Assembly (NCBI GenBank): GCA_030765625.1 | Contig: JAVCCF010000045.1 | Coordinates: 1 to 38,217 of the forward strand | Source: Candidatus Tenebribacter burtonii | GTDB taxonomy: Bacteria > Cloacimonadota > Cloacimonadia > Cloacimonadales > TCS61 | Direction of reading: 5' to 3' | Length of the DNA: 38,217 nt | Part shown: positions 20,912 through 28,102 of the stretch, in pieces | Position numbering within the stretch: position 1 is the first letter of the stretch | How the letters are laid out: every line of letters starts with the position of its first letter | The notes under the pieces: generated by a model | Databases searched by the model: none | Told to the model about the DNA's origin: nothing | What the model saw: the letters and a program-made list of their open reading frames with translations, nothing else | Program-made: the position numbers and the translations under genes

Positions 20912-22219
20912 CTATTTAATTATATCTAAAATTAATTTTTCCTTTTGGACTTCTTCATCAATTAACTTATAGCTACTCAATATTTTACTGATAATATTTT
21001 CTCCCTCATTTTTATTATTACAGAAGATATAACCAATAGTTTCATCTTTGCTGATTTTATCACCAACTTTCTTAGTTAAATATGCTCCTGAGGAATAATC
21101 TAATTTAGAATCAAGAGTTTTCCTACCAGCTCCGATCTCAATTAAAGCATAACCAATTTGCTGTGAATTTATAGAATTAATCCAACCTGATCTTTGTGAG
21201 ATTATTGGAATTTTATATTTAGCTTGAGGAAGAAGAGATAAATCATCACAAACTTCTGGGTTACCACCTTGAGCAGCAATCGAATCTTTGAAATATTTTA
21301 AAGCTTTTCCAGAGTTGATCACTTCTTCTAACATAGTTATGGCTTCCAGTTCAGTAGTGGCAACTTCTGAAAATAATAACATTTCTACAGCCAGAGCTTT
21401 TGTCAACATATCAATATCGGGAATATCTTTACCTTGCAGGTATTCAATTGTTTCTTTAATTTCCAGAGCATTTCCAATATATTCACCAAGTGGGGAATTC
21501 ATATTGGAAAAAATAACTGATACCTTCTGTCCGAATTTCTCACCGGTTTTTATGAGAAGATTTGCAAGTTCCTTTCCAGTTTCAAGATCTTTAATAAATG
21601 CTCCGGAACCAATTTTAAGATCAATAACAAGATTTTGCGCACCTTCAGCTATTTTCTTACTCATGATACTGGCAGTAATTAATGGTAGACTTTCCACTGT
21701 TCCAGTCACATCTCTCAGAGCATATATCCTGCGGTCGGCAGGAACCAGTTCTTCCGATTGACTTATTATGCAGAATCCAACTTTATCAATTATTTCTTTG
21801 AATTCCAAATCGTTGAAATCTGTTCTAAAGCCTGGGATCGATTCGAGTTTATCTAAAGTTCCACCTGTATGTCCTAATCCGCGACCGGATATCATTGGAA
21901 TCTTCCCACCACAAGCTGCAACAATTGGTGCCAGCATAATGGTAATTTTATCTCCAACACCACCGGTTGAATGCTTATCTACAGTTTTATATGATTTTGG
22001 AAATGTGATCTGTTTTCCTGATTCAATATATACTTTTGTTAAAGTTTGGATTTCTTCAATCTTCATATTTTGAAAGTAGATAGCCATTAACAAAGCTGAC
22101 ATTTGATATTCAGGGACTTCATTATTTATATAGGAATTAACAAAATATTCCAATTCATTTTGTGTTAATTCTTTTCCGGTTTTCTTCTTTATAATTAATT
22201 CAACTGGATTCATTTTCAT
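20912..22219 (-). CDS. deoA: Pyrimidine-nucleoside (thymidine) phosphorylase
   Basis: This enzyme splits thymidine or uridine with phosphate into base and pentose-1-phosphate, for salvage. The 435-residue length and motifs are clear: KHSTGGVGDK (phosphate site), then SGRGLGHTGGTLDKLE (the family signature) and RDVTGTVESLPLITASIMSKK. The C-terminal barrel-sandwich domain (about 345-430) is present. GGAGGGATAAT precedes the ATG, which overlaps the upstream aroDE stop by 4 bases. Whether it prefers thymidine or acts on all pyrimidine nucleosides cannot be told here. Its place at the end of a shikimate operon is unusual. Confidence 0.95.
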   Translation of the reverse strand: MKMNPVELIIKKKTGKELTQNELEYFVNSYINNEVPEYQMSALLMAIYFQNMKIEEIQTLTKVYIESGKQITFPKSYKTVDKHSTGGVGDKITIMLAPIVAACGGKIPMISGRGLGHTGGTLDKLESIPGFRTDFNDLEFKEIIDKVGFCIISQSEELVPADRRIYALRDVTGTVESLPLITASIMSKKIAEGAQNLVIDLKIGSGAFIKDLETGKELANLLIKTGEKFGQKVSVIFSNMNSPLGEYIGNALEIKETIEYLQGKDIPDIDMLTKALAVEMLLFSEVATTELEAITMLEEVINSGKALKYFKDSIAAQGGNPEVCDDLSLLPQAKYKIPIISQRSGWINSINSQQIGYALIEIGAGRKTLDSKLDYSSGAYLTKKVGDKISKDETIGYIFCNNKNEGENIISKILSSYKLIDEEVQKEKLILDIIK

Positions 22220-23595
22220 ATTATCCCTCCTAGATTACATATTTCAGAGATAAATTTTTTCTGTTGGAGCTTTGCTTGAAGTATCCAGAAATTTTTACCA
22301 TCAATATATTCAATATTATTTTCAATGCATCTGTTTATTAGTAAAGTATTTTTTTTTTTATAAGGTAGTTCCATTACTCTTTTTGGTAATTTTAAATTGA
22401 GTGATTTTAATAGATCTTCATTTTTAACGCCAATGGGAGTACAATTGATTATAAGATCAAACTTGTAATTTCCTAGCAATTGTAATTGAGTGAATTGTTT
22501 TTTGTTTTCATCTGCTAATTTTTTGCCAGCTATTTTGTTTCGACTTGAAATTGTTACATTGTCATAAGCTTGGAATGCCTTCAATGCGATCTCAGCAGTT
22601 GCTCCGCTGCCAATTATCAGGATAGATTCATCTTTTTTGATCTTCAATATCTCAATTGATCTTTGAAATGCTATCAAATCCGTATTCAACATTTCATCTG
22701 TTTTAGGTAGGAATAAGTTTACTGCAGAGAGTTGTTTTTTTGCTCCGACTTTTTTCTTAAGAGGCATTGTAATAGAAAATCCATAAAAATTAATATCGGC
22801 TTTATTTATCCAGTTCCATAGATCATCAATATCATCAGTTACAAAGGGAATATAAACTGCATTGAGTTTTTCTTTTGTGAAAAGATCGTTATAATATTTT
22901 ATTCCGAGAGAATGTTCAACCTGCTCTCCGCCAATAATTCCACCGATTTGTGTTTTTGGGGAAATTAATCTAAGCTTGAACAATTCTGCTTCTTCAGGTA
23001 TTAGTTGCCCTTGAGCAGTTCGATTGTTTGGAAGGCCAATAAATGTTGCATCAGCACCAAGATGCCGGAATAATATTCTGCTGATCTTTCCAAGTTTTCC
23101 CATCCCGGCAAAAATAACAGGTTTGTTTGATTCGGATATTATTTTTGAAAGTTTTATTAGATCTGAATATTTTGATACATTTACAGCTATTTTTAAAAAT
23201 CTTGAAGAAATTGAATTCGATTTTCTAACAACTTTGTTCAATTTTGTAAAATTGATATTTTCAGAGAAATCATGATACGATAAGATCAGATTATTTCCGG
23301 GAATAGAGGTAATTTCAAGATTATCAACTTCATTTATTTCAAGATCACAAACACAGTTTTTAATAGAAATAATTTTATTATAAAATTCTATTTTGTCAGC
23401 AATATCAGTTTTGTGTTTTCCACCTTCCTTTACACTGCGAATTGTCAGGATTGTTTTTTTATCAATTATTTCCTGCGGAAAGGATTGAAAATTTTTAGAA
23501 TAATCAAGTCGGAATTCTTTCCAGTAATTCTGATATTCTTTTGCTTTTTGAATTACGTAATCGTTATTAAGGTATGGAATTGAAAGAATTATCAT
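22216..23595 (-). CDS. aroDE: Bifunctional 3-dehydroquinate dehydratase (type I) and shikimate dehydrogenase
   Basis: The 459-residue protein carries two consecutive shikimate-pathway enzymes. The N-terminal type I dehydratase (about 1-212) has EFRLD (Glu28, Arg30), His108 in SYHDF, the Schiff-base Lys135 in FLKIAV and Gln197 in TAQGQ. The C-terminal dehydrogenase (about 215-459) has HSLG (Ser229), Lys280 after SITMPL, AVN (Asn293), NTD (Asp306), the NADPH loop IGSGATAE and NCTPIG. Its substrate motif departs from the usual HSxSPxxHN, and SITMPLK replaces NVTxPxK. The start is the ATG at 23593-23595, which overlaps the aroC stop by 4 bases; a start 12 codons earlier lies inside aroC and is less likely. 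This fusion is best known from plants but also occurs in bacteria. Confidence 0.92.
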   Translation of the reverse strand: MIILSIPYLNNDYVIQKAKEYQNYWKEFRLDYSKNFQSFPQEIIDKKTILTIRSVKEGGKHKTDIADKIEFYNKIISIKNCVCDLEINEVDNLEITSIPGNNLILSYHDFSENINFTKLNKVVRKSNSISSRFLKIAVNVSKYSDLIKLSKIISESNKPVIFAGMGKLGKISRILFRHLGADATFIGLPNNRTAQGQLIPEEAELFKLRLISPKTQIGGIIGGEQVEHSLGIKYYNDLFTKEKLNAVYIPFVTDDIDDLWNWINKADINFYGFSITMPLKKKVGAKKQLSAVNLFLPKTDEMLNTDLIAFQRSIEILKIKKDESILIIGSGATAEIALKAFQAYDNVTISSRNKIAGKKLADENKKQFTQLQLLGNYKFDLIINCTPIGVKNEDLLKSLNLKLPKRVMELPYKKKNTLLINRCIENNIEYIDGKNFWILQAKLQQKKFISEICNLGGII

Positions 23596-24893
23596 TGTCT
23601 TTTTTTGCTTTCTGATATAATAATATTCCATATATCTACAACAAGTGATTTATCAATATTCCATAATTTTCCTTTTTGTTTCAATTTGGCAAGAAGCTCT
23701 TCTTCTCGATCTTTATTCTCTATCTGAAGTTTGTTTTCCCGTTTGAATTTACCAACAAGTTTAGAAATTTTTTGTCTTCTTCCAATTGCGATTAGTATAT
23801 CTTCATCTATTTTATTAATTGCTTCTCGATAATCTGTTAATTGCAATTTTTTACCGGCAATCAATTTTTGATAGCTCAATGCATCTGCCAGAACAAGTTT
23901 TATCATTGCCATCGCAACCGGTATAATTCGTGGGATAATGCATGTGTCATGTCTTCCATGAGATTTGAATTCTACTTCTTTATTGTCTTTTGTTACTGTT
24001 TTTTGAGTTATGTTTATTGAGGAAGTAGGCTTAACTACAAAACGAAAAATAAGATCATTACCAGTACTTATTCCACCCAGAATTCCACCATGGTAATTTG
24101 TGAAAAATCCATCTTTATCCATCGCATCATTTGCTTCATTACCCTTTAGTGCAGCAAGTTCAAAGCCATATCCGAATTCTATTCCCTTCACGGCTCCTAT
24201 AGAGAGGGTCGCTTTTGCCAGATTTGCATCAAGTTTTTCAAAAACAGGATCTCCCAATCCTGTTGGTATATTTTTTATCTTTACTTCTACAATTCCGCCG
24301 ATCGAATTTCCTTCATTTTTTATATTGTTCAAATACTCAATTAAATTTTCGTAATTTGTTTTATCATGCCATGATAATTCGTTTTGAAAAGAATTATCAA
24401 TTTCTGTTACTTCAAATTTACCAATTTTTACAGGATAGATTTTTATGTTAATATCTTCTAAAATATTCTCAACCAATCCTGATGCTACAACTCGTGATAT
24501 AGTTTCTCTACCGGAAGCTCTTCCACCACCGCGATGATCATAGATCTTGAATTTTTTAAAATATGAGAAGTCTGCATGTCCGGGACGGAAAAGATCTTTT
24601 AAATGTTCATAATCTTGGCTGTGAGAGTCTTTGTTGTAAATCAATAAACAGATTGGCATTCCTGTGGTTTTACCTTCGAAGATACCTGATAAAACCTGTA
24701 GTTCATCCTTCTCTTTTCTTGTGGACGAGAATGTTCCCACGCCCGGTCTGCGTTTATCCAGAGCACTTTGGATCTTTTCTAATGGGAATTTGATACCAGG
24801 CTTTACATCTTCGATAACTACTCCGATTACCTTTCCATGACTTTCTCCGAAAGTGGTTATTCCATAATACTTCTCAAAACTGTTAGATTTCAT
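23592..24893 (-). CDS. aroC: Chorismate synthase fused to a C-terminal AroQ chorismate mutase
   Basis: Residues 1 to about 345 are chorismate synthase: TFGESHG, DKRRPG, FRPGHADFSY, GGGRASGRET and GRHDTCIIPR, binding FMN and EPSP. Residues about 350-433 align without gaps to E. coli AroQ mutase. Arg356, Arg373, Lys384, Arg396, Glu397 and the final Gln433 match Arg11, Arg28, Lys39, Arg51, Glu52 and Gln88; Asp48 is Asn393. The fused enzyme should make chorismate and convert it directly to prephenate. Chorismate synthase alone is usually 350-390 residues. The gene is first in its operon and overlaps aroDE by 4 bases. The start follows a weak AGGAAAG. Confidence 0.93.
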   Translation of the reverse strand: MKSNSFEKYYGITTFGESHGKVIGVVIEDVKPGIKFPLEKIQSALDKRRPGVGTFSSTRKEKDELQVLSGIFEGKTTGMPICLLIYNKDSHSQDYEHLKDLFRPGHADFSYFKKFKIYDHRGGGRASGRETISRVVASGLVENILEDINIKIYPVKIGKFEVTEIDNSFQNELSWHDKTNYENLIEYLNNIKNEGNSIGGIVEVKIKNIPTGLGDPVFEKLDANLAKATLSIGAVKGIEFGYGFELAALKGNEANDAMDKDGFFTNYHGGILGGISTGNDLIFRFVVKPTSSINITQKTVTKDNKEVEFKSHGRHDTCIIPRIIPVAMAMIKLVLADALSYQKLIAGKKLQLTDYREAINKIDEDILIAIGRRQKISKLVGKFKRENKLQIENKDREEELLAKLKQKGKLWNIDKSLVVDIWNIIISESKKRQ

Positions 24894-26888: not shown

Positions 26889-26902
26889 TTGGGGAATGAT
26901 TG

Positions 26903-28102
26903 ATGAATAGGATATTAACCATTAATTCGTTGCAAGATGCAAAAAAAGAATTAGAGAAGATCAATGTTTCTACACAAGGTATTCAAGTGATGGCTCCGAA
27001 AGCTCTTGGACTTTCCATAAAACTTACAGATGTAAAACTTGGAGCAGCTAACATCCTGAAACAGGAAATGCTCTCGATTGGCGGTGATGCAGCTGTTGCA
27101 CGAGGTGTTGTTAATGGTAAACTCGAATTCAGCGATATGATCCTTTTGGGAAATTTGGATAAGATCAAAAAACTAGTAAAGAAGCTGAATTATCAAACAA
27201 TTTTTGGTTTACCGGAAATAAAACAAGATTTAATAAATATTATTGATAGTCAGGAAAATCCATATTCTAAAGTTCTTAATTGTAATGGAACCAGGTTAGA
27301 ATTAAATGAAACAAAAATAATGGGGATTCTCAATGTAACTCCCGATAGTTTTTCTGATGGTAATCTGTATTTTGATTCAAGTAAAGCTGTTAAACGAGCA
27401 TTAGAAATGATAGCAGAGGGAGCTGATATTATTGATATTGGTGGTGAATCAACCAGACCCGGAGCACAAAAAGTGAATGCAGAAACAGAAATAGAACGGG
27501 TTATTCCTATCATTAAGAAATTGAGAAAAATATCTGATATTCCAATTTCTATCGATACTACTAAAGCCGAAGTTGCAAAAGAAGCATTGAAGGCAGGAGC
27601 TTCCATACTAAATGATATCAGTGCTTTGCAATTTGATGCAGGAATGATAAAAGTCTTACAGAATTTTTCTGAAGTACCTGTAGTATTAATGCATATGCAG
27701 GGAACACCCGATACTATGCAGGATGATCCGTATTATGAAGATGTTATTGAAGAAATATTATTATTTTTTAAAGAACGTATAAATTTTTGTGTTGGGAATG
27801 AAATTTTACATGATCGGATTATTATTGATTCAGGAATCGGGTTTGGGAAAAGACAGGAAGATAATTTGGTAATTCTAAAGAAAATTGCTGAATTAAAATG
27901 TCTGGGAGTTCCTATAATACTGGGAGCTTCACGAAAAAGTTTTATTGGAAATATTTACGATTCAGAAATTACGGAACGACTTGCAGGAAACCTTGCTTCC
28001 ACGGCGTTTGCATTCCAAAATAATATAGAAATAATACGTGTTCATGATGTGATTGAGCAAAAGAATTTCTTAAATGTAATGAAAGAGATTAGGAAAGTAT
28101 AA
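26903..28102 (+). CDS. folP: Dihydropteroate synthase, long form
   Basis: FolP joins p-aminobenzoate to the pterin diphosphate in folate synthesis. About 399 residues from the ATG at 26903, which has GGGGA upstream; a TTG one codon earlier is possible. The synthase barrel spans about 130-399: MGILNVTPDSFSDG, IDIGGESTRPGA, SIDTTKAEVA, LNDISAL, MHMQGTPDTM, DSGIGFGKR and ILGASRKSFIG. All substrate loops are present. The N-terminal 125 residues are an extra domain with KQEMLSIGGDAAVARGVVNG. I recall similar extensions in DHPS of various anaerobes, so this is not unique. It overlaps cdaA by one base. Confidence 0.95.
   Translation: MNRILTINSLQDAKKELEKINVSTQGIQVMAPKALGLSIKLTDVKLGAANILKQEMLSIGGDAAVARGVVNGKLEFSDMILLGNLDKIKKLVKKLNYQTIFGLPEIKQDLINIIDSQENPYSKVLNCNGTRLELNETKIMGILNVTPDSFSDGNLYFDSSKAVKRALEMIAEGADIIDIGGESTRPGAQKVNAETEIERVIPIIKKLRKISDIPISIDTTKAEVAKEALKAGASILNDISALQFDAGMIKVLQNFSEVPVVLMHMQGTPDTMQDDPYYEDVIEEILLFFKERINFCVGNEILHDRIIIDSGIGFGKRQEDNLVILKKIAELKCLGVPIILGASRKSFIGNIYDSEITERLAGNLASTAFAFQNNIEIIRVHDVIEQKNFLNVMKEIRKV

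Follow-up and report, generated by a model that had tools for sequence, protein, structure and literature searches.

A single gene in the window (the whole 38,217-nt stretch of Candidatus Tenebribacter burtonii DNA that was analysed) joins chorismate synthase, AroC, to an AroQ-type chorismate mutase. From its sequence we infer, with a probability of roughly 0.85, that the product is a bifunctional AroC·AroQ enzyme endowed with both activities. The N-terminal domain would convert EPSP to chorismate, a reaction of chorismate synthases that depends on reduced FMN, and the C-terminal domain, attached through a short linker, would turn chorismate into prephenate as the cell's only AroQ mutase. Fusing the final step of the shikimate pathway to the mutase would commit chorismate to prephenate, because chorismate appears to have one fate in these cells. 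The evidence for this reading comprises domain scores above cut-offs, invariant charged residues, purifying selection, conservation in nearly all of the phylum, a CM_2 domain that is the genome's only one, and operons of a second phylum that include tyrA and sometimes pheA.

Domain organization of the fusion protein

The gene occupies a single open frame of 433 codons, with the following parts:

23592..24893, minus strand: aroC·aroQ fusion gene, 433 aa, ATG start (from domain searches and homologues)
23865..24893, minus strand: chorismate synthase domain, about residues 1-343 (Pfam 12-339), with GESHG, RPGHAD, GRASGRE and GRHD motifs
23841..23864, minus strand: short linker, about residues 344-351 (from domain bounds and alignment)
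23595..23840, minus strand: AroQ-type chorismate mutase domain, about residues 352-433, with Arg356, Arg373, Lys384, Asn393, Arg396, Glu397 and Gln433

The sequence-only reading of this locus had described a chorismate synthase joined to an AroQ mutase, and Pfam searches bear it out, both domains lying far above their cut-offs. Chorismate_synt (PF01264) scores 396.5 bits against a cut-off of 27 (E 8e-119, residues 12-339), and the C-terminus matches CM_2 (PF01817) with 61.5 bits against 27 (E 9e-17, residues 355-433, covering positions 1-79 of the 80 in the profile). The AroC domain also scores 376 with TIGR00033 (cut-off 212). The mutase falls below the equivalog cut-offs of the NCBIfam AroQ subfamilies, the best being TIGR01808 (42.5 vs 52.2) and TIGR01791 (42.0 vs 67.0), which leaves it in none of these named groups. 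The genome, 98% complete, contains one AroC and one CM_2 domain, the fused one. Helices are predicted at residues 356-386, 394-410 and 415-432 of the mutase domain; the AlphaFold model, made from 9 sequences, is of low confidence (mean pLDDT 47.5) and was dropped as a guide to domain placement.

Catalytic residues and selection

The alignment with E. coli AroQ, said earlier to be gap-free, was recovered by phmmer between residues 354-429 and positions 9-84 of 1ecm (E 1.7e-6). The offset is a constant 345, which places Arg11, Arg28, Lys39, Arg51 and Glu52 at residues 356, 373, 384, 396 and 397, and Asp48 at 393, where the protein has Asn. Gln88 corresponds to Gln433, which sits 4 residues beyond the aligned stretch and is the final residue of the chain. 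The catalytic set, the Asn and the ending at the Gln88 position are therefore all as first read from the sequence.

Conservation of these positions was scored in 44 distinct full-length fusions of the same architecture, with identities down to about 42%. The equivalents of Arg11, Arg28, Lys39 and Arg51 are present in all 44, and that of Glu52 is Glu in 43 and Asp in one. The Asp48 position varies (Asp in 33, Asn in 9, Gln in 2), so that the Asn of the window protein represents natural variation. Gln88 is retained in 34 fusions, absent from 6 and replaced by another residue in 4. In the AroC moiety, Arg125, Ser127, Arg129 and Glu130 are invariant (44/44); His19 is kept in 43 fusions and His106 and His315 in 42 each, with His106 changed to Tyr in two and His315 to Phe in two. 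The window protein has all of these histidines and the Arg/Ser/Glu motif. Purifying selection acts on the AroC domain (dN/dS 0.08-0.10) as well as on the mutase (0.10-0.19).

Five of the six fusions lacking Gln88 belong to one family, f10 (L104, L105, L113, L114 and L115), where the chain stops short of that position; in at least one of these, L115, AroC His106 is moreover changed to Tyr. Decay or a changed activity is possible in this group. Given these shortened chains, and the few AroC domains in which a conserved histidine is replaced, the fusions need not all be active. A change of activity could in principle apply to the fused domain generally, which would then act as an isochorismate-pyruvate lyase resembling PchB, or catalyse another reaction of chorismate. 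PchB does have the AroQ fold and gives weak matches; however, the fused domain scores 26.2 with the PchB equivalog NF005475, whose cut-off is 126, Glu52 is kept in 43 of the 44 fusions, and PF00425, the isochorismate synthase family that could supply isochorismate, has no match in the genome. We regard this alternative as very unlikely.

Distribution of the fusion

The nearest homologues are found in metagenome-assembled genomes (MAGs) of Candidatus Cloacimonadota, that of 'Ca. Tenebribacter davisii' being 79% identical. One homologue with 70% identity is titled Armatimonadota and may come from a mislabelled MAG. Among 125 Cloacimonadota genomes, 58 have a CM_2 domain and 57 have AroC. The two lie in one frame of 428-473 aa in 49 of the 58 CM_2-bearing genomes; in seven others the gene is interrupted by a contig end or a frameshift, and in the remaining two the mutase is separate. 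In one of these two (G033) the mutase stands alone and AroC gave no match. In the other (G024), a 91-aa aroQ overlaps the neighbouring aroC at the end of an AroDE-DAHPS-AroB-AroA-AroC-AroQ series. A further genome (G027) has a mutase–dehydratase protein in addition to the fusion. The AroC·AroQ fusion is nearly phylum-wide in Cloacimonadota, an uncultured phylum.

The separate neighbours in G024 would fit the fusion being an artefact, with a frameshift or misassembly merging two adjacent genes. Yet the same single frame recurs, in diverged sequence, in 49 genomes; together with the 44 fusions reaching down to about 42% identity and the purifying selection on both domains, this refutes a chance or frameshift join and makes the chances of an artefact negligible.

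Outside Cloacimonadota, a 387-genome sample yielded full-length fusions, among the matches listed, in two genomes of one genus (G339 and G198). No mutase tail was present on AroC at 38 loci checked in other phyla, longest frames included. G339 belongs to a phylum represented by 40 genomes, in which two families, f87 and f226, carry the fusion; mutases of the other families are free or carried by other proteins. The survey supports the earlier judgement that the pairing is rare.

In f87, the genes are arranged in the order DAHPS-AroB-AroDE-AroA-AroK-AroC·AroQ-TyrA, and the stop codon of the fusion overlaps the tyrA start. Downstream of tyrA lie a gene for a YddG-like exporter and a second TyrA-like gene (L212:12389-13201, L211:5451-6215), about 50% identical to the first. 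The f226 loci show a shorter or partial version of this order; in three of them a PDT-like gene adjoins tyrA (two confirmed by Pfam). The order AroC·AroQ-TyrA-PDT also occurs in this phylum. A separate kind of fusion was seen in G264 (L215:1203-2831), where shikimate kinase precedes chorismate synthase (SKI 10-171, Chorismate_synt 189-521).

G416, a genome of the second phylum, encodes a 430-aa AroC (L291:9507-10799) with a mutase-like tail that lacks the Lys39-Arg51 segment and has no CM_2 match. Its mutase sits instead on DAHP synthase, as a DAHPS–CM fusion. The AroC tail reads as an eroded mutase. That the tail is eroded where another mutase is present suggests that activity is what maintains the domain in genomes that have no other mutase.

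Evolutionary history

Phylogenetic analysis of AroC places the Cloacimonadota fusions in one clade (support 99) and those of the second phylum in another (98), to which the G416 protein is sister (99). A single origin of all fusions was not rejected by the AU test (p 0.62), and the tree in which they were joined had the higher likelihood. A tree of the mutase domain gave no resolution as to the origin, the domain being too short.

Users of prephenate and chorismate

Profile searches of the window's own genome gave no match to prephenate dehydrogenase (PF02153), prephenate dehydratase (PF00800) or Chorismate_bind (PF00425), the family of TrpE/PabB/MenF-type enzymes. The pattern extends to the phylum. 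PF02153 has no match in 18 of 19 near-complete Cloacimonadota genomes, 17 of the 19 carrying the fusion; the one match is partial (22 bits), occurs in G033, which lacks the fusion, and falls in what by eye resembles a glycerol-3-phosphate-dehydrogenase-type gene (L295:4452-5423). PF00800 is absent from 19 of 20 near-complete genomes, G027 having the only match. Both searches were positive in 14 of 14 control genomes. PF00425 is unmatched in 14 of 16 near-complete genomes; the two matches, in G011 and G024, lie beside genes that look like pabA and pabC. The mutase is the sole chorismate sink detected.

Fusion-bearing genomes have a DAHP synthase besides a KdsA-like copy, and most have AroB; in G011 only one of the two DAHP_synth_1 copies was found. 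Three genomes without the fusion (G032, G042 and G050) have a single DAHP_synth_1 match and lack AroB and the second copy. Given these occurrences, the pathway appears to be kept for prephenate. A divergent TyrA that escapes PF02153 is unlikely for the kind encoded in the second-phylum fusion operons, which scores 66-84 bits, though one TyrA of G416 scores only 49. Inspection by eye of the sequences neighbouring DAHP synthase and AroB (IspG-, outer-membrane-, NYN- and Ppx/GppA-like genes and polysaccharide-type genes) turned up no convincing candidate for a prephenate enzyme. Tentatively, and at slightly under even odds, we suggest that the only detected exit of the Cloacimonadota shikimate pathway is prephenate, used either by an enzyme with no sequence relationship to TyrA or PheA, or to make a product not yet recognised. 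The absence of prephenate users suggests that aromatic amino acid metabolism across this phylum includes a step not yet recognised.

This absence would also fit a fused domain that does not work as a mutase and serves AroC as a regulatory or structural module, for example as a sensor of prephenate or chorismate or as a docking piece for DAHP synthase. The N-terminal CM domains of DAHP synthases act mainly in allosteric regulation (PMC12202928), and the loss or replacement of Gln88 in 10 of the 44 fusions could be taken the same way. Against such a role, the charged catalytic set is invariant, the domain is its genome's only CM_2, the second-phylum gene directly precedes tyrA, and the one tail that coexists with another mutase, in G416, is eroded. 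On balance a module of this type seems improbable, and a working mutase is the reading we retain.

As a bifunctional enzyme, the fusion would probably be of benefit by coupling two steps in cells where no other user of chorismate was detected. Channelling of chorismate on the protein is a possibility that the fusion itself raises. Whereas AroQ fusions normally link the mutase to prephenate users or to DAHP synthase, this arrangement ties it to the producer of its substrate, at a branch point apparently stripped of its other branches. It is thus a natural setting in which to ask whether enzymes fuse once a branch point has lost its branches, and whether consecutive steps channel their intermediate.

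Relation to known fusions

"Bifunctional" chorismate synthases, such as M. tuberculosis Rv2540c, share the name with the window protein, but combine the synthase with an NADPH:FMN reductase, not with a mutase. The label is found in the title of PMC2386126, for the M. tuberculosis type. Monofunctional chorismate synthases (PDB 5z9a, 1sq1 and 4lj2) share the whole AroC domain and lack the mutase. The AroQ·PheA and AroQ·TyrA proteins (the P- and T-proteins of E. coli; passages of PMC1173090 treat AroQ-TyrA fusions) likewise carry an AroQ mutase on a pathway-adjacent enzyme. In those proteins, however, the mutase is N-terminal and attached to a consumer of prephenate, whereas here it is C-terminal and attached to the producer of chorismate. 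DAHP synthase–CM fusions, of the Porphyromonas/Prevotella type or with N-terminal CM as in Bacillus and Listeria, also place AroQ on a shikimate-pathway enzyme; the steps they join are not consecutive (PMC12202928), in contrast to those of the window fusion. A chain uniting AroC and AroQ, and with them two consecutive steps, is previously undescribed as far as we found in the open-access literature; the passages returned from papers on AroQ fusions make no mention of a pairing with AroC.

Neighbouring genes

Two further genes follow the fusion on the same strand:

22216..23595, minus strand: aroDE, type I 3-dehydroquinase fused to shikimate dehydrogenase (from domain searches and starts of homologues)
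20912..22219, minus strand: pyrimidine-nucleoside phosphorylase gene, with a 4-base overlap with aroDE

The start of aroDE is probably the ATG at 23595, which would overlap the aroC·aroQ stop as ATGA, and not the longer open reading frame start at 23631. Among relatives, almost every complete locus has aroDE next to the fusion gene. The phosphorylase gene probably shares a transcript with aroDE. Elsewhere in the window, positions 26900-28102 encode a dihydropteroate synthase that has about 130 residues at its N-terminus as a separate stretch; the genome has no detectable PabB-type enzyme. In G011 (L099:9175-11823), AroD-AroE is in frame with the pyrimidine-nucleoside phosphorylase, giving a protein of 882 aa that could be a real fusion or the result of a lost stop codon.
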